Assembly (NCBI GenBank): GCA_021816585.1
Contig: JAKAXL010000018.1
Span: forward strand, 1 to 56,743
Direction: 5' to 3'
Length of the DNA: 56,743 bases
DNA from: Pseudomonadota bacterium
GTDB taxonomy: Bacteria > Pseudomonadota > Gammaproteobacteria > Burkholderiales > Burkholderiaceae_C
A program made the position numbers and the translations under genes. The first letter of the stretch is position 1. Every line of letters starts with the position of its first letter. Positions 1,637 through 17,400 of this stretch are shown piece after piece. Under the pieces are notes generated by a model. It was not told where the DNA came from. It did not search any database and worked only from the letters and a program-made list of their open reading frames with translations.

Positions 1637-3703
1637 TCACGTCGCGTCGCGCCAATGCTCGCGCAGCAGATCCAGCACCTTGCGGCGGGATTCCCGGTAC
1701 AGCCGGGTGTGGGCGCCGTTCATCGCGATCGCGCGGTTGTGCTTGTGCGCATGATCGAGCGCTCCGCCCTGCAGGTGGTTGTGCGCGATGAAGCGGTCCA
1801 GGCACGAGGGCAGGGCGAGGAACGCCTCCCGCAGTTGCGGCCACTGCTCGATGGCGCTGAATTCCACGTCCCAGAGTATGTGGCCCGCCATGGCGCCCAG
1901 GGCCGTGCGGACGGCAGGCGTGGCCGCGAGCGGGTAGCCCAGCGCCCACGGCACGACCTCCGACTCCGGCATCGGGCGGGCGATCGCGTAGCCCTGGCCG
2001 TAATCGGCGCCGAGCAGCGTCGCCGCTTCCACCAGGCCGGCATTTTCCAGTCCTTCGACCGTCACGGGGAGTCCGCGGGCATGGGACAGCCGCGTGAGGT
2101 GCAGGATGAACTCGAGCGCGTGCTGCGGCTCGGCCATCGCGCCGCGCACCAAGCCCTGGTCGATCTTGACCGCATCGAAGGCGAATTGCTCCAGCCGCAG
2201 CAGCGAACTGTGGCCCGACCCGAGGTCGTCCTGCGCGATCCGGATTCCGGCGTCGCGCAGGCGGGTCAGGAAGCCCCGGACCCGGGCGTCGCTGGCGACG
2301 AGGTCGCCGTGCTCGAGGATTTCGAGGACCAGCCCGCGCGGATCGACCCCGCTGGCGGCGAGGGTCGCGAAGAGGATTTGTTCATAGCGGGGGTCGACGA
2401 ATCCTTCGGGTGGGAAGTTCAGTCCGAGCTGAAGCGGCAGAGCCTGTGCGTCGAAGCGGGCGCGCATGTGCAGCGCCTGCTGGAAGCCCTGCTCGAACAG
2501 GCCGAGCAGTTCCTCCTCCCCGAAGGTCGGGAGGAAGTCGGCGGGCGCGATCAGCGCGCCGTCCTCGTCGGCGAGGCGCGCCAGGGCTTCGAATTTGGCG
2601 ACTCGTCCGTCCCGCAGGTCGACGACGGGCTGGTAGAGCATGCGCACGCGCCCGCGCCGCAGCAGATCGAGGTAGCGCCGCTGCTGCGAGAGGACGACCA
2701 CCCGGGGCTGCGGGCGCTGCTGCAACCCGTGGCTGAGGATCTTCTGGGCGTGGGTGAGGAAGTGGCGGATCCTGTGGGAGGAAAAATAGCCCGGCCAGAT
2801 GCTGTAGAGGTTGAACAGCGCGATCGACTGGCCCGAGCGATCGAGCAGCGGAATCGCGACGGCGGAGCGCAAGCCGATTCCCAGCCCGACCTCTCGCCAC
2901 GGCCCCAGCGACGCATCGGCGGCCCACGACGGCACGATCACGATGCTTCCCGTCGACCAGGCGCGCTGGATGGGCGCGGGCGCCGCCCCGTCCGCCGCCC
3001 GCAGCGATTTCGGGGGGGCGTGCGGGCTGCCGAGCGCCTCGTGGTACAGCTCCGCGTGTCGCCCGATGGACGCCTCGATCTGCAGCAGGCCCTGCGCGTC
3101 GGATCGTCCGAACAGTCCCGAGACATCCCCCTCGACCGACGCGATCGCGGACAGCACGCCGTGCACGAGGTCCGGCAGATTGGTGGTCCGGATCGCCACT
3201 TCGTCGATGTGCGTGAGGGCCGCGAAGATGCTGTCGTCGACGCGCCGGAAGCAGGAGATCCGATACTGCATGTCGAGGTAGATCCGACTGCTGATGGCCC
3301 GCGTGGCACGTTCCTGCAGTGCCGGATCGGCGACTCCTTCCCGGATCGCCCGTGCGGCGGCCTCCTGCAAGCTGTTGAAGACCTCGATGCGCCACAGGGT
3401 GTCGGCGCCGACAAGCGCGTGCTGCATGCCGATGCGCATGGCGGCGCACTCGTGCTCCGCCCTGGTCAGATCCGGGTCCGGCAGCATGAGCACGTGGCCG
3501 ACGTCGCGATCGCCGAAGTCGCTTCGCTCCTGCTCGGTGAGCTGGCGCAGCACGGCGTCGCGCGTGCCGGCCGCACGGTATCGCTCGGCGAGTTGCGCGC
3601 CATGGTGCTTGACAAGCGCGCAGAGCATCGGCGCAGCCGCGCGGAGCGCCTCGGCCGCCTGCGGGCCGTACGCACGCGCAATGTGGTTTTCGCGCAGCGT
3701 CAT
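1637..3703 (-). CDS. Globin-coupled GAF-EAL protein (c-di-GMP phosphodiesterase)
   Basis: A 688-residue cytoplasmic protein. Residues ~1-160 resemble the globin-coupled sensor fold, with a likely proximal haem His at position 95 (RIGMQHALVG). Residues ~170-330 look like a GAF domain. Residues ~345-585 form an EAL domain with EAL at 372-374, LNF at 428-430, the ELLE-equivalent EILE at 461-464, DDLGSGHSSL at 492-501, KIDQGLV and GQGYAIARP. The loop DDLGSGHS differs from the commonest DDFGTGYS but keeps both acidic residues, so hydrolysis of c-di-GMP is likely. A ~100-residue helical, His-rich tail follows. The ATG at 3703 was chosen because the protein then aligns from residue 1 with its paralogue at 17831. 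The longer frame upstream has no family-like sequence. Oxygen or gas sensing is inferred from the globin-like part. Confidence 0.82.
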   Translation of the reverse strand: MTLRENHIARAYGPQAAEALRAAAPMLCALVKHHGAQLAERYRAAGTRDAVLRQLTEQERSDFGDRDVGHVLMLPDPDLTRAEHECAAMRIGMQHALVGADTLWRIEVFNSLQEAAARAIREGVADPALQERATRAISSRIYLDMQYRISCFRRVDDSIFAALTHIDEVAIRTTNLPDLVHGVLSAIASVEGDVSGLFGRSDAQGLLQIEASIGRHAELYHEALGSPHAPPKSLRAADGAAPAPIQRAWSTGSIVIVPSWAADASLGPWREVGLGIGLRSAVAIPLLDRSGQSIALFNLYSIWPGYFSSHRIRHFLTHAQKILSHGLQQRPQPRVVVLSQQRRYLDLLRRGRVRMLYQPVVDLRDGRVAKFEALARLADEDGALIAPADFLPTFGEEELLGLFEQGFQQALHMRARFDAQALPLQLGLNFPPEGFVDPRYEQILFATLAASGVDPRGLVLEILEHGDLVASDARVRGFLTRLRDAGIRIAQDDLGSGHSSLLRLEQFAFDAVKIDQGLVRGAMAEPQHALEFILHLTRLSHARGLPVTVEGLENAGLVEAATLLGADYGQGYAIARPMPESEVVPWALGYPLAATPAVRTALGAMAGHILWDVEFSAIEQWPQLREAFLALPSCLDRFIAHNHLQGGALDHAHKHNRAIAMNGAHTRLYRESRRKVLDLLREHWRDAT

Positions 3704-4117
3704 GGGCCGCGGCGCTGCTCGGATCCCCGATCTGCCGAAGCTCGTGGCGCACGGGCATCGGCGAATCCGCCGCCTGGCGTCAGGGTGGTGGCTTCGATGA
3801 GTCGGCGGCCGGGGCCGGGATGGCTGGGGGCGCTGCCATGGATCATTGTCGCCCACGGTCGCATCTGGGGAGCGTCTTTCTCGCAGATTCGGGAGGAAAC
3901 CCCAGCGGATCGTCGCCATCTGGAGGAGTCGAGCAGTCTACATTTTCCGGCCGAGTCCGTGGCGGATGACGGCGGCAGGCCGATTCAAGGTGGCCCATCA
4001 TTCGATGCGCATTCGATGCGCTGCGCACGCAACGGCGGCGGCTGCGAGGCGGCGTCGCGCAGCGCAGGGGTTCGCGGCCCTGCAAAACTCGGGTATTGTT
4101 GTGCTTGGCGCCAATCG
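3704..4117. other. Divergent intergenic region
   Basis: About 410 bases between the minus-strand globin-GAF-EAL gene and the plus-strand H-NS-like gene. No convincing gene, RNA or strong hairpin was seen. It presumably carries both divergent promoters, but no clear -35/-10 pair was identified. Confidence 0.5.
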
Positions 4118-4432
4118 ATGGTGAAACGCATGCCGACGCATCAAGAACTCTCTGCGCAGATTGCCGCGCTCATGCAGCAGGCGGAGGCTCAGCGCAACGG
4201 TGAGCGCACAGCGGTGATCCGGGAAATCCGGGCCACGATGGCCGAATTCGGCATCACGGCCGCGGACCTGGACCCTGGGCGGGCATCCCTGGCTTTGGCA
4301 ACGGGCCGCACCGTGGCCGTCAAGTATCGCAATGCGGCCACGGGCGAGACGTGGACCGGACGCGGCAGGATGCCGCGCTGGTTGACGGCCGAGGTGGCCA
4401 AGGGCAGGACGAAGGAGGAGTTCGCGCTGTAG
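4118..4432 (+). CDS. H-NS family nucleoid protein
   Basis: About 105 residues. The N-terminal half is a charged coiled coil for oligomerisation (HQELSAQIAALMQQAEAQRN). The C-terminus carries the H-NS DNA-binding motif AVKYRNAATGETWTGRGR-MPRWL, matching the betaproteobacterial pattern Y-R-x-x-x-T-G-E-T-W-x-G-R-G-R-x-P-x-W-L. Such proteins coat AT-rich or foreign DNA and silence it. ATGs at 4118 and 4130 are both possible, and neither has a strong ribosome-binding site. The gene lies just beyond the downstream end of the adhesin operon, facing it, so a role in silencing that operon is conceivable but unproven. Confidence 0.9.
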   Translation: MVKRMPTHQELSAQIAALMQQAEAQRNGERTAVIREIRATMAEFGITAADLDPGRASLALATGRTVAVKYRNAATGETWTGRGRMPRWLTAEVAKGRTKEEFAL

Positions 4433-4547
4433 GCGCGGAGCACGCCCGCACGAAGTGCCGATGGTTCAGGGCGCGTGCGGCGTCGGGCGCGTACGCGCCA
4501 CCTCCACCGCGTGGCGCCGCGGCCCGGGCGGTCGGGCCGCGCGGCGG

Positions 4548-4793
4548 TCAGCACACGCTCTCGGCGGTCTGCCGAATCCGGAACTGCCTGGTCGCCCGCG
4601 GGCGCAGTCCCCGGCGCAGGTGCGGCAGGTGATGGGCGCGGCGCTCGCCGCGCACGTGGATCTGGACCACTTCGGCGTCCGCCAGCAGGGTCTCATCATC
4701 GTCCAGGTTGAACGATCCCTGGGCCCAGACTCCGGGAGCCCGAGGATCCAGTTCGCTGGAGTCTTCGACGGTTTCAAGCTCGATGCGGTTCAT
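4548..4793 (-). CDS. Small hypothetical protein at the end of the adhesin operon
   Basis: 81 residues, with an acidic N-terminal half (ELETVEDSSELD, NLDDDETLL) and an Arg/His-rich C-terminal half. The ATG at 4793 is preceded by a clean GGAGG with 7-base spacing, good evidence that the gene is real. It lies 138 bases downstream of the glycosyltransferase gene on the same strand and may be its last partner or stand alone. No family is recognised. The split charge suggests a nucleic-acid-binding or partner-binding role, but that is only a guess. Confidence 0.6.
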   Translation of the reverse strand: MNRIELETVEDSSELDPRAPGVWAQGSFNLDDDETLLADAEVVQIHVRGERRAHHLPHLRRGLRPRATRQFRIRQTAESVC

Positions 4794-4931
4794 GGCGGCC
4801 TCCGCGATGGGTGCTGAATCCATGCTAGGCAAGCTCGCGGGGCGGCGGGTGCAACTATTTCACGGAAAACGGGGATATCGCAGCTCCGGGCCACATCGCG
4901 GCGGCCGCGAGATCCGGGGCGAGCCCGGGAA

Positions 4932-6806
4932 TCAGGGGCGGCGATGTCTCGCGACTCCGTGTTCGAGGCCTGCCTGCACGGCGTCCAGCGCCAGCAGGAA
5001 TCGCCGTGCCATCACGTGCGGGCGGCCGTGGAACAGGGGCCTCAGGGCGTGGGCTCCGCTGTGCCTGCGGCGCAGCTCGCCACGCAATTCGTGCTGTTCG
5101 ATGAGCCGCACGGCGGCCTCCACGTAGCAACTGCGGTCGGGAGCCGCCAGCCAGGCGGGCATCGACAGGCGCTGCATCAGCGCCTGGTCGATGCGCTGAT
5201 GCACCTCGGGCCCGACCATGCAGATGCCGATCAGCCCGGCCTCGATGCAGTCGATCAGGCCATTGGTGTTGCCGAAGGGAAAGGGGTCGATGAACAGATC
5301 GCAGGCGCGCAGGATGTCCATGTACCGCGGCCGGTCGCGGTGGCTGTGCACGGTGGCGCGCATCCCCAGGCGGCGCCGCACGACCCGCGACACCTGCTCG
5401 TGCAGCACGCCGTGCGCGAAGGCCACCGTGAAATGGAAGTGCACCGGCACCGAGCAGCGCTCGGCGATCTCGCGGCAGGCATCGAGAAGGCCGGGGTTGA
5501 TCTTCATCGCCGAGGCGGCGACGCACACCTGCACGACCTCGGGCTTGTCGCGAATCGCCGGCGCTTCCCGGGCGAAGTCCGGCGGGGCCCGGTAGGGCAT
5601 GGCGTCGCGCGGCAGCATCAGCAGGATCTCGCTGAAGCAGCCGGGGTCGGCGACGAAGTCCTCCTCGACCACGACCAGATCGATGGCCCCCGCATGGGTC
5701 GTGGCCGGGTGGCCCAGGCCCATGGCCACCAGCGGGGTGAGGCGCAGGTTCGCCAGCAGCATCGTCAGGGGGAACATGCCCACGCTGGGCATATAGAGAA
5801 TCTGCGCTCGGCTGCGCTGCGCGACCTCGCGCAACTGCTCGAGCTGTGGCATGGCCGCGCCGGGCCGGAGCTCGACGAATTCGTCGAACACGGCGCGGCC
5901 CGCCGCATCCGTGGTCGCGGCCAGGCCCGCGCCGAGTACATGGAAGTGCTCGCGCGCGGCCTCGATGGCCCTCGAATGCGTGCGGTAGATCGAGTGATCG
6001 GCATGAAACCACTCGACCACCACCAGCAGCACGGGCTTGCAGCCGGGCGCATCGACTCGCGCGCGGGGCTGCGCGGCACGCATCCCGCCACGCTCGAGCA
6101 GGCGCCCGACGACGCGATTGATCGAAGCCTTGATCGCGTGCTTGTCGGCGCGGTCGGCGTAGCTGCAGTGCATGTACACATCGTGCAGGATGCCCAGCGG
6201 CAGCGCCTCGACGTCCTCGATCAGCGCCAGCTTGTCGGTCAGCCACGGCAGCAGGATCTCCCGCTTGTGGTGGGCGCTCGCCGAGCCGGTGAATCGCGGC
6301 GCCAGCAGGGCCAGGCCGAGGCCGACGGCGAGTCCCGGGTCGGCGCGCCAGACGGCATCGATGTCGAGCTCGACCTCGGACTCCGGGAAATACAGCAGGC
6401 AGAACTTGAGCAGATCGTCGGAGTCGATCACCGGCGCGTCGGCGCCGTCCCCGGGGCGCATGAGACTGCGCAGGATGGGGTCGGCGTTGAGCAGCGGGGT
6501 CGATGCGAACAGCGCGGCCAGCCAGCGTTGCAGTTCGAACAGGCGGGGCATCGCGGATCGAGGCGGGCGTACGCCGCGCTCCGCGAACAAGGCGCAAATC
6601 GCCGTCACCAGGCGCATGCGCAGGTGCTGGCCGGTTTCCGCGGGGTCCAGTGCGCGCGCCGGCTCGGCGCGAAGTACTCCCTCGAGCGAGCCGTAGCCGC
6701 TGTCGAGCGCGCCCAGCAGGCGCCAGAGCATGGCCAGCGCCGCGTCGTGCCGGCGTGTGTGGACCAGCCGCTCGAAAGTTTCGAGCTCCAGGTTCATGAT
6801 GCGCAC
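4932..6806 (-). CDS. HMW1C-type protein N-glucosyltransferase (GT41)
   Basis: 624 residues, the usual length of HMW1C proteins. The C-terminal GT-B half holds the most diagnostic stretch, DLFIDPFPFGNTNGLIDCIE followed by AGLIGICMVGPEVHQRIDQAL, which matches the HMW1C/ApNGT nucleotide-sugar-binding region. The N-terminal half is all-alpha, as in that family. Characterised members sit in the cytoplasm and transfer glucose or galactose to Asn in N-X-S/T of a two-partner-secreted adhesin before export. Here the gene lies in the same operon as such an adhesin (9108-14660), whose passenger has about ten sequons. The annotated start is GTG at 6806, with ATG at 6797 as the alternative. Neither has a strong Shine-Dalgarno sequence. 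The gene is 39 bases after the preceding gene. Confidence 0.85.
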   Translation of the reverse strand: MRIMNLELETFERLVHTRRHDAALAMLWRLLGALDSGYGSLEGVLRAEPARALDPAETGQHLRMRLVTAICALFAERGVRPPRSAMPRLFELQRWLAALFASTPLLNADPILRSLMRPGDGADAPVIDSDDLLKFCLLYFPESEVELDIDAVWRADPGLAVGLGLALLAPRFTGSASAHHKREILLPWLTDKLALIEDVEALPLGILHDVYMHCSYADRADKHAIKASINRVVGRLLERGGMRAAQPRARVDAPGCKPVLLVVVEWFHADHSIYRTHSRAIEAAREHFHVLGAGLAATTDAAGRAVFDEFVELRPGAAMPQLEQLREVAQRSRAQILYMPSVGMFPLTMLLANLRLTPLVAMGLGHPATTHAGAIDLVVVEEDFVADPGCFSEILLMLPRDAMPYRAPPDFAREAPAIRDKPEVVQVCVAASAMKINPGLLDACREIAERCSVPVHFHFTVAFAHGVLHEQVSRVVRRRLGMRATVHSHRDRPRYMDILRACDLFIDPFPFGNTNGLIDCIEAGLIGICMVGPEVHQRIDQALMQRLSMPAWLAAPDRSCYVEAAVRLIEQHELRGELRRRHSGAHALRPLFHGRPHVMARRFLLALDAVQAGLEHGVARHRRP

Positions 6807-6845
6807 ATCGTCAAGCGGGCCGCGACGCGCGCGAGGCCCGGCGTT

Positions 6846-7643
6846 TCAACCCGGGGCCTGCGTGTGTGCGGCGGCGCGCAGCCGGGGCGCGAACAGCGAC
6901 AGGTTGGTCTCCAGTTTCATCTGGTCGTACAGCATGGCGGTGACGATTTCCCGCTGCGAGGCATCGGGCAGTTGCCGGGCGAGGGCTTGCAGGCGCAAAT
7001 CGATCAGCGCCTGCTCGCTGGCGTCGACCACGCGCCATTCCAGTCGCTTCGGCTGGGCCCCCGGGGCCTGCAGCTCGATGCGGTAGCTGCGCCCCGGCGG
7101 CAGCATGGCACGCGTGAGCAGCACCGGCTTGCCGGCGGGTACCTGGATGTCCTGCAGCGCCGCGGCGGGGGCGCCGAGGGGCTGGATGCGCACGCGCAGC
7201 GCAGAGCCTCGCGGTGCCGGCAGGCGCAGCCCGGAGCTGGGGATGTACACGGGGACCGGATGCGGCAGGCCCATGCTCCGCATGTAGGCAGGCTTCTCGT
7301 CGGCGCGTGTCGAGGTGAGTTCGGCCCACGCCACGCGGACCGAGCGCACTTCGCTGCCCGGACGCGGGAAGGAGGCCACGCCCGATGGGGTGATGGGGAC
7401 CAGTTTCGGCTGGCCGCCGGCGTCGACCCAGCTGGCGAGCGCGCGGCCGGACACCAGACGCAAGGCCGCGCAGGAACGAGTCTCGAACACCGGCGAGCGG
7501 ATTCCCTCGACCGACGACACCCTGGCCGACGCGCTGCCGAGCACGATGCAGGGAGTGGCGGCCGGCGCCGGCGAGGCGGCGGCAAGTGTCAGGCAGGCCG
7601 CAGCCAGCAGGCTGCGGGCGCGGAAGTCGCAAGGCAAGGACAT
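6846..7643 (-). CDS. Exported protein of the TpsA/CHASE2 operon (DUF928-like position)
   Basis: 265 residues with a clear signal peptide: basic FRARS, then LLAAACLTLAAASPAPAA with cleavage near residue 29. The mature part has two Cys (CIVL, SCAAL) that could pair, a middle rich in Val, Pro and Ser that looks like a small beta domain, and a helical C-terminus. It starts 22 bases after the CHASE2 gene. In cyanobacteria, exported DUF928 proteins accompany CHASE2 and CHAT/haemagglutinin genes, and this protein fills the same slot. I cannot confirm homology by eye, so it is best called an uncharacterised periplasmic or surface partner. Confidence 0.7.
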   Translation of the reverse strand: MSLPCDFRARSLLAAACLTLAAASPAPAATPCIVLGSASARVSSVEGIRSPVFETRSCAALRLVSGRALASWVDAGGQPKLVPITPSGVASFPRPGSEVRSVRVAWAELTSTRADEKPAYMRSMGLPHPVPVYIPSSGLRLPAPRGSALRVRIQPLGAPAAALQDIQVPAGKPVLLTRAMLPPGRSYRIELQAPGAQPKRLEWRVVDASEQALIDLRLQALARQLPDASQREIVTAMLYDQMKLETNLSLFAPRLRAAAHTQAPG

Positions 7644-7665
7644 GGCAGGGAGCTCCCTATCGGGT

Positions 7666-9111
7666 TCAACGCAAGGCCGATGCCAATACCAGCATCGGAA
7701 ATCCCGTCTGGATCAGCAGGCTGGCAAGCGCCGCGATCAGTTCGACGACCGCGCGCGGCACGCCCAGGGCGCCCTGCGCCGGCACGCGCAGCAGGTGCCC
7801 GCGCAGCAGCGCGGCGGCGTGCAGCAGGGCCTTCCAGTCGCTGCGTATCGGCGCCACGAAAACCTGCCTCCAGGCCGAGGCCAGGCTGTCGTGCCGTACC
7901 AGCTTGTTCAGCCCCCAGTTCCAGACGAACAGGACATTGATGAAGGACACGGCCGCGATGGTGGCCGACGGGATCCAGTAGCCGGTTCGCACACGCAGCA
8001 GCGCGCTGGCCTGCGACGCCAGCAGCACGCCGGCCATCACCACCACGACCAGGGTGAGGGGCCAGATGCGCTGGGCCAGGAAGCGGTGCCCGGCGTAGGC
8101 ATCGCTCCACGGCAGCAGCATGCGCTCGACCCCGCGGTAGAGCAGGCCCAGCAGCATGTCCACGCAAGCCAGGAACAGCCACGCCACGAGGATCTGCACG
8201 AGCAGCGGCGCCATGCGCTGGTCGCCGAGGCGTCCGGCGAGCGCGGCGGCATGCAACTGCGCCCCGTAGCGCTTGCCCAGCGGGGTGTCCAGCAGGTCGC
8301 TCTTGCCCCAGCTGCCGCCCAGGACCACCCAACGCGGTGAAGTCGCCGACAGCAGGCTCTCCAGTTCGCCCAGATCACCATCGAAGGGCAACACCAGCCC
8401 ATTGCGCACGAACTGCGGCTGCATCGGCGCCGCGACCCTGCGCAGGGCGCCCGGGCCGCCCTGTGCGCCGGCCAGGGTCGCGGCGAGCCGGGCGCAGCCG
8501 AAGGCCGGGTCCGCGGCCACCTGGCTCAGCGATCCGGCGAACTGGAACATCGTGGAGGCGTAGCCGAAATCGGAGGGTAGATAGGGCCAGCCGATGCGCA
8601 CACCCTCGCGGCACAGCGCTTGCCGCCAGGCGGCGCGCCCCGGCCCTTGCGGGTTGGCGGTGACGTCCGGGGCGGCCAGCACCCAGCGGCCTGGATCGCG
8701 TGCGAACCAATCCAGCAGGGCCTTCTGGGAATGCCCCGGCAGCGGCGCGAGGTCGAGGTCGATGACGATCGCCCGTGCACGCGGCACCGCGGCATCGATG
8801 GTCTGCAGCAGTTTCAGCAGCCGGGCACGGTCCAGCGGCGAGCGCTCGCCGAAATAGTCCCGGTAGCCCTTGTCGTCGATCAGCACCGTCGCCACCTTCG
8901 GCACCGCGGTGCCGGCCGGCAGCTGGCTGGCCTGCACGAAATCGTGCGCCGCGAAGCTGCTGACCAGGTATTTCCAGGTGCCGGTCGAGGACAGCAACAC
9001 GGCAGCCCCGCCGATCAGGAAGGAGCTGCGCAGCGTGCGGATCAAGGCCTCGTAGAGAAACTGGCCGCTGAGGCGTTGCAGCCAGGCGAGCAGGGCGCGC
9101 AGCGGCTTCAA
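7666..9111 (-). CDS. CHASE2-domain membrane protein without cytoplasmic output domain
   Basis: 481 residues. A first membrane segment lies at ~28-45. A periplasmic CHASE2 domain follows at ~60-280, starting VATVLIDDKGYRDYF with ARAIVIDLDLAPLPG, matching the CHASE2 pattern of a hydrophobic strand, I-D-D/E-x-S/G, then a second I-D strand. Several further membrane segments follow (~300-325, 350-375, 385-405 and one near the C-terminus). CHASE2 normally feeds a kinase, cyclase or GGDEF domain, and none is present. The start is TTG at 9111, overlapping the TpsA stop (TTGA), so translation is coupled to TpsA. It probably senses an extracytoplasmic cue or assists the exoprotein. Domain identity is by motif. 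Confidence 0.8.
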   Translation of the reverse strand: MKPLRALLAWLQRLSGQFLYEALIRTLRSSFLIGGAAVLLSSTGTWKYLVSSFAAHDFVQASQLPAGTAVPKVATVLIDDKGYRDYFGERSPLDRARLLKLLQTIDAAVPRARAIVIDLDLAPLPGHSQKALLDWFARDPGRWVLAAPDVTANPQGPGRAAWRQALCREGVRIGWPYLPSDFGYASTMFQFAGSLSQVAADPAFGCARLAATLAGAQGGPGALRRVAAPMQPQFVRNGLVLPFDGDLGELESLLSATSPRWVVLGGSWGKSDLLDTPLGKRYGAQLHAAALAGRLGDQRMAPLLVQILVAWLFLACVDMLLGLLYRGVERMLLPWSDAYAGHRFLAQRIWPLTLVVVVMAGVLLASQASALLRVRTGYWIPSATIAAVSFINVLFVWNWGLNKLVRHDSLASAWRQVFVAPIRSDWKALLHAAALLRGHLLRVPAQGALGVPRAVVELIAALASLLIQTGFPMLVLASALR

Positions 9112-12100
9112 TCGGGTGCTCCCTGCGCGCCGCGCTCGAAGACGTAGTCCGCTCCGGGTTGATGCCCGGCGCTCAGCACGGCGCCGTAGCGCGGAGACTG
9201 CGGCAGGACGCTCTCGACGCCGGTGCGCACCTGGTGGAACACGCGGTCGCCGTTGCTCCAGCCGCGAATCGAACGCAGGCTGCGCATGAAGTCGGAGGCG
9301 AACACCGAGTGGCCGTCATCCCCGGTGTCGGCCACCGGTTCGTCGCCGCCGGAAGACATCACGGTGACGGCGCGGCGCCGCAGCAGCGCGCTCAGCGGCG
9401 GCACCCTGCGCAGGTCCATGACCTTGCGGTTCTGCACGAACTGGCCCGAGTAGCAGCTGTCCGAAACCACGGCGATCTGCCGGCTGCGCGCGCGCTGCAG
9501 CAAGCGGTCGATGTCCACGTTCGAAACCCAGCCTCGCGGGCTGTCGGGGTCGGCATCGCTGGGAATCCAGTAGCCCTCGCCGGTGCTGTCCACGGTGTCG
9601 CCATGTCCCGCGTAGTAGATCAGGATGCTGTCGTTGGGCCCGGCATGCTCGATCAGGGTGTTCAGCGCCCCGATGAGTTCGCGCTTGCTCGGATCGCGCA
9701 ACAGTTGCACGCGGTATCCCATCTCCGAATGCAGCAGCTTGCCGATGGCGTGCGCGTCGGGCACCGCACCGATGAGCCGTGGTATGCGTGGGTCGGTGTA
9801 GCTGTCCAGTCCGATCACCACGGCCCGCGCGAAGCGGGGGCGATCGTCCCGCGGCGGATGTCTGGGTGGTACGAACAGGCAGTTGCCGGCCGCGGGGTTC
9901 TGCGCCGGGGTGCAATCGGGCAGGTTGGCGAGATCCGGATTCGCGGCCAGCTGCTTGTTGGCAGCGGCGAACAGCTGGCGCATGTAGGCGTTGCGCGCAC
10001 TCAGCACCTTGCCGATCTCGCCGCGTCCCATCTGCGTCAGCGGGAGTACGCGGAAGTACAGATTGGACAGGTCCGAATCCAGATAGAGGTACCGGGGAAC
10101 GGTGTGGAACATGGCTGCCGCGCCGAGCGGGCGGGAACCCGCGGGGGCGGCCTTGCCGCTGCTTCCCGACCAGGCAGGCGTCTCCGACGGAACGGAATTC
10201 ACGATCGCCGACGAGGCGCCGGTCAGGCCGCCCCGCGGCGCGCCCGACAGGAGCTTCCCGGCCGCAGCGAAAGAGCGCGCGGCGGAAGTCGGCGAAGCAC
10301 CGGGCCCGGAATTCGACGAGGCGCCTTGCGCGAAGTCCAGGACGGACTGCAGGACGGTTGCCGCGGCAGACGGGCCCAGCGGGGCCCGCGCGTTGGCGCC
10401 GACACCGCCTGGGACGCCGCTGCCGCCGGTGCCATGGGTGCCGCTTGAGCCGCTTGAGCCGCTTGAGCCGCTTGAGCCGCTTGAGCCGGTTGAGCCGGTT
10501 GAGCCGCCTGTGCCGCCTGTCCCCCCGGTTCCCCCGCTGCCTCCCGCAGCCGGCGGCTGTTGCAGCACCCAGGCCGTGGCCTGTCGCAGGTTCGTCAGTC
10601 CCCACGACGCCGCCGGTGCATGGAACACGACCTGGGAGAATGCCCCGCTGCTGCTGCCGAATCGCAGGTAGGCGAAGCTGTCGGTCGCGGCAGCGGTGTA
10701 GCCGCTCGTCGCAGCCACATCGAGCGTGCCGCCGACCGCCGCGGATCCCGTGGTCTCGAGCACGTCGTAGCCGCTTCCCGGGGAGGGGCCGCCAAGGTCC
10801 ACGTGCAGCGTGCCGCTCGCCGACTGGGAGAGATTGCCATCGAGCGACAGGGAGCCCGTCGCGCCCGCCGCGATTCCGGGATCGATGGTTCCGTCGTTGA
10901 TCAGGGTGCCGGCCGCGCCGCCGGCTGAGCGCAGGTCGATGGTTCCGTCGCCTCGCACGGTCGCCCCGGCCGCGTTGAGCAGATCGCTGCCCCCGGTGGC
11001 GATGCTGCCTCCGGCGTCGACCACGATTCGCCCCTGGTTCTGCAGACTGGTGCCGAGCAGTTGCAGCGAGCCCGACGCGCTCGCCAGCAAGGTCCCCTGG
11101 TTGAGCAGCTTCGCGCCGGCGCCTCCGAGCCCATTGCCGCCTGCCGTGTCGGCGCGCACCGTGGCGCCCGATCCGATGGTCAGCGTGGACGCCGCCGCGC
11201 TCGCCTGCACGACCGCCGCGCCGAGCAGATCGACGGTGCCGGTGCCGAGCAGTTGCGGGGCGAGCCCCGCTCCGCTGAAGTCCAGCAGCGCCGTGCCTGC
11301 GCCGTAGGCGTAGGGGCCGCCATAGCCGCCCATGCTGATGTCGCCCCGGCTGGTCAGGCTCAGCCCACCCGGCACCACGATGCCGGCGCCGGGATCGATG
11401 AAGGTCGCGGCGTCCAGCGTGACGCCGTCCAGGGTGCTCTGCGGGCCCCACTCGGCGATGGTTCCTGCTGCAAGCGTCCCGTTCGCCTGCAGCAGGGTCA
11501 GCGCGCTCGGTGCGGCAGCGACCGCATTGCCCGCGGCGCTGGTCAAGGTGCCCCCGAGCAGCGAACCTCCCGCCAGCACCAGACCTCCCATGGCATCGAT
11601 GTTGTAGGTCTGGCTCTGGTTGTTCCACACCCCGTGCGAGGCCAGTGCGTAGGTTCCCGCACCGAGCAGGTTCCCGAGACCCGCAGTGTCGAAGTTCCCG
11701 TCGAGCAGGAACACGCCGCCCTCATTGTCCAGTGTCCCCGACGCATTGCTCCAGTTGCCCTGCAGGTCGACGATCCCGCCGAGTGCCTGGATGTCGCCGG
11801 AATTGCTCCAGCTCACCCCGCTGCCGGCGATCTCCAGCTCTTCGCTGTCGGGCGTGAACGCGCATCCCGAGGGGCAGGCGGAGGCCGAGCTGATGGTGCC
11901 CTGGTTGTCGAAGCCGTTGGACGCCTGGATGGTCGCGACGCCGGACAGTGTGCCGCTGGAGGTGGTGGTGACGGTCATGCCGCTGGCGATGGTGGCATTC
12001 GGCCCGAGCGCCAGCACGGAGTTGTCGTTGAGGTTCACCACGCCCCCGCCGGTGAGCAACGGCGCGGTGCCCTGCAGGCTCAGCAGGGGACCGGTGCCCG

Positions 12101-14660
12101 TCTCCGACGGGTTGTTCATGTCGACCGAAATTCCTGGGTCGATGGTCAGGGTGTTCAGCGCGGTCACCGCCGCCCCCGGGTCGATCTGCAGGTTCGCTCC
12201 CAGCTCGACACGGTCGAGGGTGCTGTTCCCGGCCGAGGCTTCGATCGGGTAGCCGGCGCCGGCCAGCGCGCCGCCGAGGATCTGCCCGCCCTGCAGTTGC
12301 AGGCCGCCCATCGCGGCGAGGCTGTAGCTCTGTCCGGAGTTGTTCCACACGCCTTGCGGACCGAGGACGAAGCGGCCGCTCAGGTACGGGTTGGAGACCG
12401 TTCCCAGAGAGCTTGTGCTGAATGCGCCATCGAGTACCAGGGTTCCGTCGGCGCCGACGTAGAGCGTGCCGCCGGCCGGATTGCTCCAGGATCCTTGCAG
12501 CGTGACGGCGCCGTTGGAGCCCAGGAACGTGTTGGAACCCGGTCCGATCGTTCCCTGGTTCACCCAGCCGCTTCCCGTCACGGTCAACGCGGCGGCGACG
12601 CCTGCCCGACCGTCCGCCCCCACGGCGCCCTGGTTCAGCAGGCCCAGCGAGCTGTTGCCCAGCACGTTGCTGCCCGGCGAGGTCGATGCGACTTCGATTC
12701 CGGGCCCGACGCTCAGCGTGGAGCCGACGCTCACGGGTTGCACGACATCGGACGTTCCGGCAAGGATGACGGCGCCGTTGCCGGTGATCGCCGCAAGCGT
12801 GCCGCTGCCCGTGAAGTCCAGTGCCGCGGTCGCGCCGCTGCTGCCCTGCAGCGTGACGCCGAGCAGCCCGTCGAAAGCCAGTCCGAGGGTGTTGGGGACG
12901 TCCACGCTGGCGCCGGCGGCGATGCTCAGCGGATCCTGCAGCACGACGTTGTCCAGCACGCTGGTGCCGGCCGTGGCGCTCAGTCCGGCCGTGCCGGTCA
13001 CGGTCAGGTTCTGCAGCGTCGCGCCGGACAGCAGGGCGCGCGAGCCCAGGCTCAGCGTGCCGCCGTTCAGACGGATGCTGGCGCCGGCGGGCAGGTTCAC
13101 CTGGCCGCCGCTTGCGCCCTGTCCGGCGTCGAGGGTCAGTGCCAGGGGGCCGCCGCCGGCGATGGCGGAGATCGCGCTGTCCACCTGGATGTTGTTCCAG
13201 GCGTCCAGCGTGAGCGTGGCGCCGCCTGGCGGAAGGCTCGCGCTGATCGGGCTGGCAACGGTGATATCGCCCGCCTGCGCGCCGCTGCCGGATCCGCCGG
13301 TGGAAACGACCACGCTGGTTCCGGCGGCCAGCGCGCTGTCGATCAGCCGCGCGCCCAGTTGTGCGCCGCTTGCGCTGGCGTCGAAGGGATTGCTGCCGCT
13401 GATCGCGCTGGCGCCACTGCCGGCGACGATGGTGATGTCGTAGGGGTCGACCAGCCAGCTTCCCGCCTGGCCATGGCCGGCCGACGCATCGGGAGCGCGC
13501 TGCACATTCAAGAGGTCGCCCGCCGAGGTTTCGATCCGGCCCCCGCTGCCGGCGATCGAGCCCCCGCGGGCACTCAAGGCGCCGAGCACGGTGGTCGAGT
13601 CGCGCGCGCGCAAGGTGATGCGCCCGCCGTGGCCGGCACCCGCCGCGTCGGCGCGCAGGCTGGCGCCCGCGCCGATCGCGATGGACCGGGCCCGCACAGC
13701 GATGCTCCCGCCGTTGCCCGAGGCGGCGCTTGCGTCGACGGCTGCGTCGACGAGCACGTCCGCCCGGCTGCTCGAGATCCGCACCGACCCGCCTTGCGCC
13801 CGCGTCACGCTGCCTGCCCCGAGGACCATGTCGCCGCGCGAGCGCAGCACGATGCGGCCCGCCGCGTCGCGGCCCAGGCTCGAAGCCACCGCCGTGCCCT
13901 GCTGGTTCACGACGGCGCCGTAGATGTCGATTTCTCCGGCGGCCACCGAGCCTTGCTGTGCGGCCAGTCCGGCCAGCGACGGCACCTTGAAGCGCATGAA
14001 GGGCGTGTTGCTGTCGGCCAGCTCCACGTTGCGGGCGGCGAGCAGCGCCGCGCGCCCTCCGGGTACCTCGATGCTGCCCTCATTGCGCACGCTGGAGCCC
14101 ACCAGCAGCACATGCCCGCCATAGGGGGTGCGTATGCTGCCTTCGTTGACCACCGCCGCCGCCCCGCCGGGCGGCGCGGCGAGCATGCCCGCTCCGGCCA
14201 GGAAGGCGCGGTTGTCGATGTCCAGCGTCGAGGCCACCAGTGCCGCGACGTCGACGCGCGCGCCGGAGCCGAACAGCACCCCGTGCGGATTGATCAACCA
14301 GACCTGGCCGTTGCTGCGCAGCTCGCCGAGAATGGCCGACGGATCCCCGCCGATGACGCGGTTGAGCACGGCGCTGCTCGCGCCGGGCTGCTCGAACACC
14401 ACCGCGTTGCCCGCGCCGATGGAAAAGCGCCGCCAGTCGAGGATGGTGCGCTGACCGGTCCGGATGTCCAGCGTGGCGCCCGAGCGGGTCGCCGCGGCAT
14501 GTCCGGCCAGCACCTGCATGCCGCTGGGCAGCGCTGCGGCGCCGGCCGCGGCGCCGTGCGCCATGCACGCGACGGCGACGGCCAGGCTCAGCGTGAGCGG
14601 GCGCAGGCGGGGGTGGCTGCGGGAGGGGGCGTGCAGCTTGCTTCGTGATGGGGTCTTCAT
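9108..14660 (-). CDS. TpsA-type filamentous exoprotein with C-terminal caspase-like domain
   Basis: 1850 residues. A long signal peptide (basic ~1-20, hydrophobic TLSLAVAVACMAHGAAAGAA) leads into a haemagglutination-activity/TPS domain (~40-160: LDIRTGQRTILDWRRFSIG, NPHGVLFGSGARVDVAALVAS) that would bind the TpsB POTRA domains. A ~1250-residue Gly/Ser/Ala/Asn-rich beta-helix passenger with repeated W-N-N and L-x-N-x-G-T motifs follows, then a Gly-Ser-Thr linker. Residues ~1605-1840 form a peptidase C14/caspase-like domain: ARAVVIGLDSY, YYAGHGD with His1686, and VVSDSCYSG with Cys1736, so the dyad is intact. The gene starts 13 bases after tpsB. It is probably exported through TpsB and N-glycosylated in the cytoplasm first. 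Whether the caspase domain reaches the surface is inferred. ATG 14660 lacks a strong ribosome-binding site. Confidence 0.88.
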   Translation of the reverse strand: MKTPSRSKLHAPSRSHPRLRPLTLSLAVAVACMAHGAAAGAAALPSGMQVLAGHAAATRSGATLDIRTGQRTILDWRRFSIGAGNAVVFEQPGASSAVLNRVIGGDPSAILGELRSNGQVWLINPHGVLFGSGARVDVAALVASTLDIDNRAFLAGAGMLAAPPGGAAAVVNEGSIRTPYGGHVLLVGSSVRNEGSIEVPGGRAALLAARNVELADSNTPFMRFKVPSLAGLAAQQGSVAAGEIDIYGAVVNQQGTAVASSLGRDAAGRIVLRSRGDMVLGAGSVTRAQGGSVRISSSRADVLVDAAVDASAASGNGGSIAVRARSIAIGAGASLRADAAGAGHGGRITLRARDSTTVLGALSARGGSIAGSGGRIETSAGDLLNVQRAPDASAGHGQAGSWLVDPYDITIVAGSGASAISGSNPFDASASGAQLGARLIDSALAAGTSVVVSTGGSGSGAQAGDITVASPISASLPPGGATLTLDAWNNIQVDSAISAIAGGGPLALTLDAGQGASGGQVNLPAGASIRLNGGTLSLGSRALLSGATLQNLTVTGTAGLSATAGTSVLDNVVLQDPLSIAAGASVDVPNTLGLAFDGLLGVTLQGSSGATAALDFTGSGTLAAITGNGAVILAGTSDVVQPVSVGSTLSVGPGIEVASTSPGSNVLGNSSLGLLNQGAVGADGRAGVAAALTVTGSGWVNQGTIGPGSNTFLGSNGAVTLQGSWSNPAGGTLYVGADGTLVLDGAFSTSSLGTVSNPYLSGRFVLGPQGVWNNSGQSYSLAAMGGLQLQGGQILGGALAGAGYPIEASAGNSTLDRVELGANLQIDPGAAVTALNTLTIDPGISVDMNNPSETGTGPLLSLQGTAPLLTGGGVVNLNDNSVLALGPNATIASGMTVTTTSSGTLSGVATIQASNGFDNQGTISSASACPSGCAFTPDSEELEIAGSGVSWSNSGDIQALGGIVDLQGNWSNASGTLDNEGGVFLLDGNFDTAGLGNLLGAGTYALASHGVWNNQSQTYNIDAMGGLVLAGGSLLGGTLTSAAGNAVAAAPSALTLLQANGTLAAGTIAEWGPQSTLDGVTLDAATFIDPGAGIVVPGGLSLTSRGDISMGGYGGPYAYGAGTALLDFSGAGLAPQLLGTGTVDLLGAAVVQASAAASTLTIGSGATVRADTAGGNGLGGAGAKLLNQGTLLASASGSLQLLGTSLQNQGRIVVDAGGSIATGGSDLLNAAGATVRGDGTIDLRSAGGAAGTLINDGTIDPGIAAGATGSLSLDGNLSQSASGTLHVDLGGPSPGSGYDVLETTGSAAVGGTLDVAATSGYTAAATDSFAYLRFGSSSGAFSQVVFHAPAASWGLTNLRQATAWVLQQPPAAGGSGGTGGTGGTGGSTGSTGSSGSSGSSGSSGSSGTHGTGGSGVPGGVGANARAPLGPSAAATVLQSVLDFAQGASSNSGPGASPTSAARSFAAAGKLLSGAPRGGLTGASSAIVNSVPSETPAWSGSSGKAAPAGSRPLGAAAMFHTVPRYLYLDSDLSNLYFRVLPLTQMGRGEIGKVLSARNAYMRQLFAAANKQLAANPDLANLPDCTPAQNPAAGNCLFVPPRHPPRDDRPRFARAVVIGLDSYTDPRIPRLIGAVPDAHAIGKLLHSEMGYRVQLLRDPSKRELIGALNTLIEHAGPNDSILIYYAGHGDTVDSTGEGYWIPSDADPDSPRGWVSNVDIDRLLQRARSRQIAVVSDSCYSGQFVQNRKVMDLRRVPPLSALLRRRAVTVMSSGGDEPVADTGDDGHSVFASDFMRSLRSIRGWSNGDRVFHQVRTGVESVLPQSPRYGAVLSAGHQPGADYVFERGAQGAPD
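10438..10540 (-). repeat. 9-bp tandem repeat encoding the Gly/Ser/Thr linker of TpsA
   Basis: On the plus strand the unit CCGCTTGAG is repeated five times, followed by two CCGGTTGAG copies and degenerating CCGCCTGTG-type units. On the coding strand it encodes runs of S-S-G and T-G-G. It separates the beta-helix passenger from the caspase-like domain. In-frame 9-bp units allow length variation without frameshift. Confidence 0.85.
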
Positions 14661-14673
14661 GCTCGTTCGCGGA

Positions 14674-16254
14674 TCAGAGCTCGAAGCGCAGACTCAGGTG
14701 CATGCGCCAGTCGCCGCGCTGTGTGCTTGCGGCGGTGGCTCCGGCGCGACCGAGGTCGAGGCGCAGCCATGCGGTCTGGATGCGCAGGCGCAGGCCCACG
14801 CCGGCGCCCCAGATGCTGCAGTGGGTGCGGCCCGGAAGGCAGTCGACTCCCTGGCGATCGGCCACGCTGCCGGCGTCGAGGAAGGCGAGTGCGCGCAGGG
14901 AGTCCGCGGCGCGTCGCGCGGCCGGCATCGCCGGTGTCAGCGGCACGCTGTACTGCAGGCTGCCCGATGCGCCCGAGTCGCCGACCAGCGCGGTTTCCGG
15001 ATAGCCGCGAACGCTTTGCGCACCGCCGATTCCGAACTGTTCCGCGAACACCAGCGGCCTTTCGCTGTATTGCGCGTCGAATCGCCAATCCAGGCGTCGC
15101 CGGGAAGCGAAGCCTTGCCGCCCCAGCGCGTCGACCCGCAACAGGTGATAGCGGCTGCTCGATCCGGGGCGCGCGGCGTCGAAGGCGGCCTGGTCGCCTG
15201 CCGAACCGAGGGGCAGGTTCTGCACCACGGTCCATTGCGCCATCAGGTCGCCGGGCCGCTGCAGCTGGTAGCCCAGCGAGAGCGGCAGCACGTCCAGGGA
15301 AGCTCCCGCCGAGCCGCAGCCGGCGGAACCGAACACTCCCAGCGAACAGTCGTTGCGGTAGCGCCTGGCATCCACGCCGATGAAGAACTGCTGCCGGTAG
15401 CGTCCCAGCAGGGGTTGCAGCCACAAGGCGCGCACCCCCGCCGAATAGCCCTTGCCGGTGAAGCGCAGCTCTCCCGCAGGGGTGGCGATGGGACGGTCGG
15501 CCGTGTTCGACGCCAGCGCCGACCATTCCAGGAAGGTGTGCCTTCCGTACAGCGGTTCGCGCAGCGTCGTGCTCAGGCTGGCCGCGTCCCCCGGCCTGTC
15601 GGGCGAGGCCTGCAGCCGCAGGCGCAGGACGCTGTCGCTGTCCAGCACGTTCGCATTGCGATACGCCAGAGTCGTTCGCGCGCGCCCGGTGTCGGAATTC
15701 CCGCTGTTGTCGAAGCCCAAGGTCCACTGCGTGAGGGGGCGCTCATGCACGACGACCAGCGATTCGACCTGGCCGACGCGCTGCCCCGGCTGAAAGACGA
15801 CGCGCACGGATTTCGCGGGGTTCTCGTTGACCATCAGCAACTCGCTGTCGAGCGCTGCGAGGTCCGGAACCTGTCCCAGGCGCAGCGCGGGCAGGCCGCG
15901 AAGAATGTTCGAGCGCGTGAACTGACGCAGTCCGGCCACGTCGATCTGGCTCAGGCGGCCTTCGATGACACGCAGGTGGATCCGATGATGTTCGATGGTC
16001 TGCGGCGGCACCTGCACCACCACGGTGCCGAAGCCCGCCTTGCGGTAGGCGAGCTGCAGCTGCCGGGCCGCCTGGCGGATCGCCGGCAACTGGGGGAGCG
16101 CGGGCACCCCGGCGAGGGCATGGGCGATTTGCCCTTGATCGAGAAGGGTGTTTCCGTCGACGGAAAAGACGTAACGGGAATGGTTGGAGGCATTCGCCTG
16201 CAGCGGAGCGCAGAGACATGCCGCGAGAAAGATCGTCCTCCGCAGGTGATTCAT
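14674..16254 (-). CDS. TpsB outer-membrane transporter (ShlB/FhaC/HecB family)
   Basis: 526 residues. After a signal peptide (~1-22) the protein has a POTRA_2/ShlB-type periplasmic region (~30-200, including YRKAGFGTVVVQVPPQ and IEGRLSQIDVAG) and a 16-strand barrel (~205-526). The conserved L6 loop motif is present as QSVRGYPE, and the chain ends in an alternating strand with a terminal Leu (LSLRFEL), as expected for outer-membrane insertion. TpsB proteins secrete the cognate TpsA across the outer membrane without ATP. The gene is promoter-proximal here (B before A), with tpsA starting 13 bases later. In the HMW locus the order is A-B-C, so this operon is rearranged. Confidence 0.92.
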   Translation of the reverse strand: MNHLRRTIFLAACLCAPLQANASNHSRYVFSVDGNTLLDQGQIAHALAGVPALPQLPAIRQAARQLQLAYRKAGFGTVVVQVPPQTIEHHRIHLRVIEGRLSQIDVAGLRQFTRSNILRGLPALRLGQVPDLAALDSELLMVNENPAKSVRVVFQPGQRVGQVESLVVVHERPLTQWTLGFDNSGNSDTGRARTTLAYRNANVLDSDSVLRLRLQASPDRPGDAASLSTTLREPLYGRHTFLEWSALASNTADRPIATPAGELRFTGKGYSAGVRALWLQPLLGRYRQQFFIGVDARRYRNDCSLGVFGSAGCGSAGASLDVLPLSLGYQLQRPGDLMAQWTVVQNLPLGSAGDQAAFDAARPGSSSRYHLLRVDALGRQGFASRRRLDWRFDAQYSERPLVFAEQFGIGGAQSVRGYPETALVGDSGASGSLQYSVPLTPAMPAARRAADSLRALAFLDAGSVADRQGVDCLPGRTHCSIWGAGVGLRLRIQTAWLRLDLGRAGATAASTQRGDWRMHLSLRFEL

Positions 16255-16608
16255 TCTTGTTGAATCGTCGTTCTGAATATATCGCTGGCCTGCGGCGCCG
16301 AAGAAAATATGAATCTTCCGGAATATCCCGCCGAGACATGCGCCACCGTCTTGTTGGTTTTTTCGGGGGCGCTTTGATTATCCATGGGCGGTGCAAGGCG
16401 GTGTTGCCGGGAAGTGTCCTGCGCAGGTGTCCGGTCCGACAATCCTGGCGACGCGCGGAGGGGCCGGGGCCGAATTGCAAACAGGCGCTGCCGAATGTGA
16501 CGAAAAGCCCCCCCGAGTGGGTGGCTATGACGGTTTCCTGGCGTTACAGGAATTGCAGCTGGTCATGCGATGCGCCCGCCCCGATGAACGCGGGGTCGGC
16601 AGCACCCA
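16255..16608. other. Promoter region upstream of the adhesin operon
   Basis: About 350 bases between two minus-strand genes. The part nearest tpsB (16255-16390) is visibly AT-richer than its surroundings and carries the promoter candidate listed separately, a plausible H-NS binding target. The rest has no recognisable gene or hairpin. Confidence 0.5.
16276..16305 (-). promoter_or_regulatory. Possible promoter of the tpsB-tpsA operon
   Basis: On the minus strand, TTCTTC (16305-16300) and TATATT (16281-16276) are separated by 18 bases and lie just upstream of the tpsB ATG at 16254. The -35 match is weak and the implied leader is very short, so this is only a candidate. Confidence 0.25.
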
Positions 16609-17400
16609 TCACCAGCGGCGCTTGCGCACGTGGCGCAGGAATTCCTCGAGGATGGGGGCGCAGTCCAGCAGTTGCGGGTTCGACGGGTGGTGGAACTCGG
16701 GGTGCCACTGCAGCCCGAGCAGGAAGTTGCGTCCCGTGCCGCGGATCGCCTCGGGCAGGCCGTCCTCGGGGCTGATGGCGTCCACCACGAGATCGCGGCC
16801 CAGGCTGCGCACCGCCTGGTGGTGCACCGAGACGACGTTGAGGGTCGCGGGGTTGACCTCCGGGTACAGGCGCGCGAGCAGTCCGTCCTTGACGAAGCGC
16901 ACCGGATGCAGGTTCAGGTCGTAGGCCTCGCTGAGATGCAGGGTGCCGTGCTCGGGAAGCTGGGTCGGCACGTCCTGATAGAGCGTGCCGCCCATGGCCA
17001 CGTTGATGAGTTGTGCGCCGCGGCAGATCCCCAGCACGGGTTTGCGCACTTCGATGAACTCGTGCAGCAGCTCCATTTCGTAGCCGTCGCGCATCGGGTC
17101 GCCGGCCCATTCGGGCTTGAGCGCCTCTTCGCCGTAGCTGTTCGGACTCATGTCGGCGCCCCCCTGCAGGATGAGCCCGTCGAGCGCGTCGGCGTAGTCG
17201 GAGAGGCGGATGTTGCTGCGCACGATGCCGCCGCCGCTGGCCACCGTCGGCACCATGAACACCAGCACGTCGCGCGACATGGCCCAGTGCGCCACCGACT
17301 GTTCCAGGTACTGCAGGGTCTTGGCGCGCAGGCCGGCCTGCCCCGGATGGGGATGTTCGATGCGGGCCGAGATTCCGATCTTCAGGGGTTTCGTGGCCAT
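16609..17400 (-). CDS. Class I glutamine amidotransferase, PuuD-like gamma-glutamyl hydrolase
   Basis: 263 residues, a peptidase C26 fold. The nucleophile elbow is VLGICRGAQLINVAMGG, with Cys in G-I-C-R-G. The catalytic His/Glu are in QWHPEF, and LILQGGADMSP forms the oxyanion region. PuuD-like enzymes hydrolyse gamma-glutamyl-gamma-aminobutyrate in putrescine breakdown, but many members have unknown substrates and no other putrescine genes are nearby. The ATG at 17400 gives the family's normal N-terminus (KIGISARIE). The upstream in-frame extension is Pro/Arg-rich and unlikely to be coding. Confidence 0.85.
   Translation of the reverse strand: MATKPLKIGISARIEHPHPGQAGLRAKTLQYLEQSVAHWAMSRDVLVFMVPTVASGGGIVRSNIRLSDYADALDGLILQGGADMSPNSYGEEALKPEWAGDPMRDGYEMELLHEFIEVRKPVLGICRGAQLINVAMGGTLYQDVPTQLPEHGTLHLSEAYDLNLHPVRFVKDGLLARLYPEVNPATLNVVSVHHQAVRSLGRDLVVDAISPEDGLPEAIRGTGRNFLLGLQWHPEFHHPSNPQLLDCAPILEEFLRHVRKRRW

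Follow-up and report, generated by a model that had tools for sequence, protein, structure and literature searches.

Gene content and boundaries of the locus

The window analysed here is a stretch of 56,743 nucleotides (contig JAKAXL010000018.1 of assembly GCA_021816585.1) from a Pseudomonadota bacterium of the Burkholderiaceae_C. Its minus strand carries a two-partner secretion (TPS) locus in which, from 5′ to 3′, tpsB is followed by tpsA-C14, encoding an exoprotein that ends in a caspase-like domain, and then by genes for a CHASE2 membrane protein, a small exported protein and an N-glucosyltransferase (NGT) of the HMW1C type (Table 1). The gap between tpsB and tpsA is 13 bases, tpsA and the CHASE2 gene overlap (-4), and the following gaps are 22 and 39 bases; with this spacing, the five genes are probably co-transcribed as an operon. 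A scan found no promoter-like sites (0.4 expected) and two terminator-like sites, versus 3.6 expected by shuffling, both within genes.

Genome G014, from the same genus, contains an empty site (contig C200, locus L088), where the flanks of the operon lie about 22 bp apart. Window positions 3311-4880 align with L088 3-1512 and positions 16605-17730 with L088 1534-2654, and beyond the right flank the match runs on over window positions 17820-26980. Because these flanks are contiguous in G014, the five genes, together with some 350 bp that precede tpsB, constitute one unit, either gained here or lost in G014. The unit is real, accessory and self-contained. The flanks were surveyed via P0007, a peptidase C26 gene product whose gene adjoins tpsB and which is present in 13 of 28 genus genomes, our own included; its surroundings were compared in 10 of the 12 others, and both flanks were contiguous in one, G014. 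Between the edges of the unit (4801-5000 and 16401-16700) there are no direct repeats of at least 11 bp and there is one 11-bp inverted match. GC content is fairly even over positions 1-24000 (0.65-0.74 per kb).

The first-pass annotation of this DNA had described a six-gene operon. All of its open reading frames (ORFs), coordinates and gaps hold, but the sixth member, a 94-aa ORF, lies outside the indel unit and the six-gene version was rejected. This ORF begins 138 bases beyond the NGT gene if it starts at an ATG, or 99 bases beyond it if it starts at the TTG at 4832, and has no Pfam or NCBIfam match. It is 83% identical in G014 and 49-56% identical over part of its length in L089, L090 and L097, three other loci of the genus where the stretch read does not contain the operon. 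It is a small gene in its own right, present in five genus loci, window included, and occurs both with and without the operon.

Table 1. Features of the locus and their positions in the window
Feature	Positions	Strand	Basis
Indel unit, 11.7 kb, with five genes and about 350 bp ahead of tpsB	4881..16604	-	Empty site in G014
tpsB (P0006), outer-membrane transporter, 526 aa	14674..16254	-	ShlB, Omp85 and POTRA_2 matches
tpsA-C14 (P0005), exoprotein, 1850 aa	9108..14660	-	TPS and Peptidase_C14 matches
Gly/Ser low-complexity linker, passenger to caspase tail	10407..10538	-	Translation and comparison
Cysteine pair C1583-C1594 (C-x10-C), N-terminal to caspase	9879..9914	-	Tails of relatives
Peptidase_C14 domain, residues 1612-1816	9213..9827	-	Profile and motifs
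CHASE2 membrane protein (P0004), 481 aa	7666..9111	-	PF05226
Exported protein (P0003), 265 aa, no family	6846..7643	-	Predicted signal, model
HMW1C-type N-glucosyltransferase (P0002), 624 aa	4932..6806	-	HMW1C domains, PDB 3q3e
94-aa ORF (P0001), left flank, outside the unit	4548..4832	-	Kept in genus loci without the operon

The secretion pair and its caspase domain

Profile matches agree with the protein identities proposed in the first-pass annotation (TpsB, TpsA with a C-terminal caspase, CHASE2 protein and HMW1C-type NGT), and the exported protein is recognised by a predicted signal. P0006 matches ShlB (71 bits, 1.6e-19), Omp85 (44 bits, 2.2e-11) and POTRA_2 (33 bits, 6e-8), and TpsB shows 76-78% identity to its counterparts in three genomes of the genus, one of which is aligned over 168 residues only. 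The TpsA protein is laid out as a signal peptide (recognised by eye), a TPS domain, a beta-helix passenger, the Gly/Ser linker and the C-terminal caspase. Its TPS domain, at residues 68-262, matches PF05860 with 103 bits (2.4e-29) and also TIGR01901, an NPxG-type motif (NPHG) is present in the translation, and residues 18-922 match EtpA (PDB 8vba) at 4e-46. A TPS-domain TpsA beside a ShlB/FhaC-family TpsB with POTRA is the composition of a type Vb two-partner secretion system.

The Peptidase_C14 match (PF00656) near the end of the 1850-residue protein scores 64 bits (2.9e-17). Catalytic-type residues are intact, with H1686 in a YYAGHG motif and C1736 in SDSCYSG, and a profile search with the caspase tail matched the yeast metacaspase PDB 4f6o at 1.1e-5. 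By sequence, this is a caspase p20 domain with a His/Cys dyad, and proteolytic activity is predicted. A structure model of the tail built from four close sequences had a pLDDT of 37.1 and was not used. Among the four TpsA proteins of the genus, the tail, from a YLYLD motif through the C14 domain, is the most conserved part (82-90% pairwise identity); the TPS head is 68-84% identical, the passenger 43-65% and the linker 27-50%. A run of about 20 prolines, noted by eye, stands in G005 and G015 (L008 and L009) where the window and G011 have the Gly/Ser linker.

A cysteine pair ahead of the caspase

A GHG motif can be recognised in the tails of 119 of the 120 relatives listed, and in 118 of these 119 a pair of cysteines precedes the caspase, a pair being two cysteines 6-16 apart within the 150 residues before p20. 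The last two cysteines are 11 apart (C-x10-C) in 100 tails, and P0160 is the single tail that lacks a pair. Of 2380 random upstream windows of 150 residues in the same proteins, 127 contain a pair of this kind, and cysteine is rare in TpsA-caspase relatives overall, at 2.8 per 1000.

A cysteine pair near the TpsA C-terminus is the mark of the HMW1-type anchor, and C1583-C1594 has that position. According to passages of one review, a disulfide loop in HMW1, and by expectation in HxuA, holds TpsA fast in its TpsB pore so that the C-terminus remains periplasmic (PMC5422565). A second review, in the part available, holds that small cysteine loops should not hinder translocation (PMC8151025). The linker has no match among PDB sequences at E<=10, so the case for an anchor is one of position and chemistry rather than homology. 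We infer that C1583 and C1594 form a disulfide that would act as a stop, as in HMW1. Because the pair precedes the caspase and HMW1 sets a precedent for such an anchor, the arrangement would be a surface fibre with a periplasmic caspase, and the suggestion of the first-pass annotation that the protease rides on the surface of the fibre appears the less likely of the two.

The CHASE2 protein and its exported partner

P0004 matches CHASE2 (PF05226) with 34 bits (2.7e-8; cut-off 26.3). Five hydrophobic segments are found in this protein and in both relatives tested, and transmembrane (TM) segments flank the CHASE2 domain, as in a sensor. CHASE2 is the only Pfam or NCBIfam domain of P0004, and no output domain (kinase, cyclase or GGDEF) was recognised; the earlier idea of a fibre monitored by the CHASE2 protein gains no support from its domain content. 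For the 32 CHASE2 database relatives, the precomputed domains likewise consist of PF05226 only or are lacking altogether. Two cysteines are invariant in a 21-row alignment of the CHASE2 proteins. No plasmid copies of the CHASE2 protein were found.

The model of the exported protein P0003 (pLDDT 84.1) consists of a predicted beta domain, an Fn3/Ig-like domain and three helices. The protein has no Pfam match at E<=1. It was considered as a FecR-domain protein and rejected, as neither P0003 nor any of 15 family members matches FecR. Kinship with MtxA-like periplasmic proteins, in which an Fn3/Big domain precedes a domain of helical repeats, is a lead only; the PDB profile search did not list MtxA. 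The top Foldseek rows were MalQ with a TM-score of 0.21, in a fold comparison that barely probed the N-terminal beta domain.

Conservation within the genus

Of 120 relatives, five have the CHASE2 protein; all five, our own genome among them, belong to the same genus. In three of the four other CHASE2-bearing genomes (G005, G015 and G011), tpsB, tpsA-C14, the CHASE2 gene and the exported gene are kept in this order, although the G015 contig begins inside tpsB. A scan of genome contigs returned just these three members of the genus (JAKCDM010000011.1, JAJZEC010000025.1 and JAJZTW010000012.1, contigs of metagenome-assembled genomes). The fourth genome, G007, has a reduced block (L011 9983-11816) with a CHASE2 gene that lacks about 75 sensor-domain codons in frame and with part of the exported gene; no tpsA-C14 or tpsB lies within the stretch read. 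The co-occurrence in related genomes that the first-pass annotation named as a check is seen for the four-gene core within the genus, but there is no NGT match in any of the four other genomes, and the 12 loci read outside the genus have no CHASE2-partner match (see below).

The block is not tied to one position. G005 and G015 have common flanks, and G011 shares the block alone with them. Likeness between the flanks of the window and those of G005/G015 comes down to one GGDEF-like match, which lies at the opposite side of the block (21583-22401 to L008 7150-7974, 69%), and the window and G011 have no common flank. Since the flanks differ in this way, the block stands at three places within the stretches read.

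The glycosyltransferase

P0002 has two HMW1C domain matches (81 and 62 bits) and matches PDB 3q3e at E 7e-149; against NF049992 it scores 595 bits, below the equivalog cut-off of 1000. It keeps the lysine aligned with K441 of ApNGT, given an offset of 11 between the PDB chain 3q3e and native numbering by our own count. This lysine is needed in ApNGT, according to the part of the source available (PMC5303269). On the basis of gene order, the NGT could glycosylate TpsA. The passenger holds 10 sequons versus 10.1 +/- 2.8 in shuffled sequences (10 versus 11.9 +/- 3.2 over a wider stretch), and sequon enrichment is absent from all four genus TpsA proteins, with fewer in G005 than in shuffles (5 versus 11.2).

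No NGT was found at E<=1e-3 in the other four CHASE2-bearing genomes of the genus. We rejected the NGT as a fixed part of the system, and because the other blocks lack it, the core consists of four genes, to which the NGT has been added here. NGT matches occur in 6 of 28 genus genomes, our own included, and one of these is weak (G021, 24 bits). Their neighbours include a TPS-domain TpsA in G008 (C57), in G014 a TpsA-like ORF that has YDG/MBG_2 repeats and is truncated where the contig ends, and ORFs with autotransporter PATR repeats near the NGT genes of G017 and G025. A second NGT gene of G008 lies beside a DAHP synthase gene, the sole neighbour scanned. Our own genome (93.6% complete) has this TpsA as its only TPS-domain match, and encodes a second NGT, 61% identical, on contig C7 (G000:C7, L032 7164-11662). 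The C7 gene adjoins an ORF that matches POTRA_2 and also, weakly and under the cut-off (21 bits), DUF5649, which looks as if the start of a tpsB had been joined to the end of a tpsA by a deletion or an assembly collapse.

Distribution beyond the genus

Database searches, each of which scored about 8000 candidates, returned 32 matches at E<=1e-3 for the CHASE2 partner (29 score above 250 bits, and genus proteins are among them), 18 for the exported protein and 153 for the caspase tail. Of the 153, the 120 listed were analysed: 110 carry the TPS signature by profile, and 119 have both caspase motifs by pattern. Named sources include Rhodoferax, Noviherbaspirillum, Inhella, Rhodocyclus, Massilia and Nitrosomonas. 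From their sequences, TpsA-caspase fusions are widespread.

The CHASE2 pair appears to be specific to one clade. Eight rows in a tree of 126 tails were labelled as CHASE2-linked, and every one of them falls within a single clade of 11 rows (SH-aLRT 97); the eight include copies of the window and G011 proteins, and three rows of the clade and most rows elsewhere are unlabelled. Judged by equal size of the longest contig, two CHASE2 relatives appear to share a contig with a tail relative (37917: P0015, P0043; 19128: P0034, P0047), and three appear to share one with an exported-protein relative (39582, 95931 and 5285).

Searches of genome samples scored at most 3-4 candidates per genome, so absence from them is not strict. 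The CHASE2 alignment matched 1 of 399 genomes in the order sample at 1e-20, our own, and 6 of 369 in the class sample at 1e-5, our own and five weak ones. The best of the five was G361 (88 bits, 4.9e-25), two were at about 1e-18 to 1e-19 and two at about 1e-5; at four of these loci, no tpsA-C14, TpsB, exported-partner or NGT match was found by profile. The tail query matched 34 of 369 class genomes at 1e-30, mostly as shorter C14 matches. Tails above 230 bits were present in four class genomes, namely our own, G086, G235 (two loci) and G351, and the loci read in the latter three, on short contigs in G235, held no CHASE2-partner match. The order sample gave 12 of 399 genomes at 1e-45 with the tail query, our own included.

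At twelve loci read outside the genus, G086 among them, no match to the CHASE2 partner, the exported partner or the NGT was found at 1e-3. Six have an adjoining tpsB, two are cut at tpsA by the contig end, three have no TPS signature and one has a TPS domain and no TpsB match. Since none of the twelve shows the CHASE2 partner, TpsB with TpsA-C14 appears to be the unit of wider occurrence, and the CHASE2 pair a companion in one clade.

In other families, at three of the twelve loci and among the selected neighbours scanned, tpsA-C14 is followed downstream by FHA, PP2C and OmpA genes of the type found in type VI secretion systems, in G086 (L069 11366-14277), G087 (L111 6715-9518) and G766 (L113 9994-12974). 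One gene separates tpsA-C14 from this set in G766; a protein kinase and IcmF are also near in G087, and a Roc-COR GTPase gene (L069 316-2712) lies directly upstream of tpsB in G086. By gene content, the FHA/PP2C/OmpA set is a second envelope-signalling partner set for TpsA-caspases.

Interpretation of the locus

Our preferred interpretation, held tentatively, is that the unit may build a surface fibre whose stem sits in the TpsB pore and whose caspase lies in the periplasm, under the control of the CHASE2 protein and the small exported protein. TpsA would be exported by Sec and, as its TPS domain suggests, its passenger would be translocated by TpsB and fold outside the cell. The C-x10-C disulfide loop would then halt the chain in the TpsB pore, and the caspase would fold and stay in the periplasm. 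There it would be held or triggered by the exported Fn3-like protein and the CHASE2 domain, both of which are predicted to face that compartment, and on a signal it would cut a periplasmic substrate or the stem of the fibre. The NGT, in this genome only, would glucosylate the passenger in the cytoplasm. The empty site, the kept order of the core, the conservation of the tail, the cysteine pair, the precedents for CHASE2 proteins beside periplasmic proteins and the Trichodesmium fusion discussed below all support this interpretation. So do the domain content, hydrophobic segments and invariant cysteines of the CHASE2 protein and, as regards the NGT, the finding that our own genome has no other TPS-domain match than this TpsA.

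The caspase could instead reach the exterior, either exposed at the surface or set free, and serve there as an effector towards other cells or the matrix; the protein would then resemble large TPS exoproteins that carry an enzyme at their tip. TpsA proteins normally move outward, the C-termini of TpsA proteins in contact-dependent inhibition (CDI) carry enzyme domains, and a flexible Gly/Ser or proline linker lies ahead of the tail here. CDI-type TpsA proteins, however, have a variable C-terminal tip on a conserved stem, and in the genus the tail is far better conserved than the passenger, the reverse pattern, which disfavours a polymorphic-toxin or CDI tip. The next gene encodes a 481-aa membrane protein and there is no small immunity-like gene, and we regard an outside effector as rather unlikely. 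It is also conceivable, if quite unlikely, that the caspase serves maturation or release by cutting the stem of its own fibre and thereby freeing the passenger, under the control of the CHASE2/exported pair. Such a protease would be well placed at the base of the fibre beside a poorly conserved, low-complexity linker, and FhaB processing by other proteases, as described in excerpts of the literature, is a precedent. On the other side, no cleavage site was recognised, although no search was aimed at one, and the proteolysis is itself a prediction. Self-release also overlaps with our preferred periplasmic-caspase interpretation and could be its final step.

A very improbable alternative is a glycosylated adhesin of the HMW type with incidental caspase and CHASE2 neighbours. 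One category of HMW1C-type enzymes is encoded beside tpsA and tpsB, according to the part of the source available (PMC3983070), two genus NGTs lie by a TpsA or TpsA-like ORF (G008 and G014), and the NGT gene is inside the indel unit here. Against it, all three other blocks dispense with the NGT while the CHASE2 and exported genes stay, and the sequon count is that expected by chance. HMW1ABC and EtpABC do resemble the locus in having a TPS-domain TpsA, a TpsB and an adjoining HMW1C-type enzyme, and HMW1, in the passages available, in a cysteine pair towards the TpsA C-terminus (PMC5422565). They differ in that here a caspase lies beyond the pair, CHASE2 and exported genes are present, the NGT is not conserved and sequons are not enriched.

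Other known systems cover parts of the arrangement. Proteins that go under the names "filamentous hemagglutinin" or "caspase family protein" have the same C-terminal C14 tail, and differ in having no CHASE2 partner in the 12 loci read outside the genus. In a Trichodesmium metacaspase, according to the part of the source available, a caspase is joined to a CHASE2 domain that has a single TM helix on its N-terminal side and three on its C-terminal side (PMC3501461). That protein is one polypeptide with its caspase placed in the cytoplasm (PMC3501461; also PMC2853523, both seen as excerpts), whereas here two genes are involved, the caspase is on a TPS exoprotein and, in our interpretation, caspase and CHASE2 domain would lie on one and the same side of the membrane. 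Excerpts of two further papers describe periplasmic proteins encoded beside CHASE2 membrane proteins, as here: the gene that comes after mtxA resembles CHASE2 and adenylate-cyclase sequences (PMC4439547), and a LysM/FecR protein is encoded with a CHASE2 histidine kinase (PMC5192318). In both pairs CHASE2 is joined to a cyclase or kinase, unlike in P0004.

The combination of genes is thus unusual but separable. TpsA-caspases are common, the CHASE2 pair looks clade-specific and, of four copies of the block, this one alone carries the NGT. The chief interest of the locus is an exported caspase family with a cysteine pair, of which we found no description in the open-licence literature searched. 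Titles and the beginnings of abstracts there yielded no paper recognised as treating TpsA-caspases or CHASE2 with haemagglutinin, which is a weak absence. No paper was found either on the cyanobacterial haemagglutinin/CHAT/CHASE2 gene sets that the first-pass annotation had invoked. To our knowledge, bacterial caspase homologues are generally discussed as cytoplasmic. A cyanobacterial review treats them so in the passages available (PMC7475262), and a review of type V secretion system passengers contains the word "caspase" zero times (PMC6555100). If the interpretation is true, TPS-exported caspases would place caspase proteolysis in the cell envelope. TpsA-caspases would also offer a direct test of TpsA as a switch from the outside to the periplasm, and a possible answer to the role of a CHASE2 protein without an output domain.

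It is tempting to speculate, although we consider it unlikely, that there is an exported branch of caspases in which a fibre knotted into its own secretion pore by a disulfide, on binding or pulling, and a CHASE2 protein that has lost its output domain together switch on proteolysis in the envelope. For the clade with the CHASE2 pair, the caspase would then serve as the output of CHASE2, at the periplasmic face of the inner membrane.

Further genes around the unit

Two genes with signalling domains lie on opposite sides of the region. An EAL-domain gene occupies window positions 1640-3919, and a PAS-GGDEF gene occupies positions 21541-23025.

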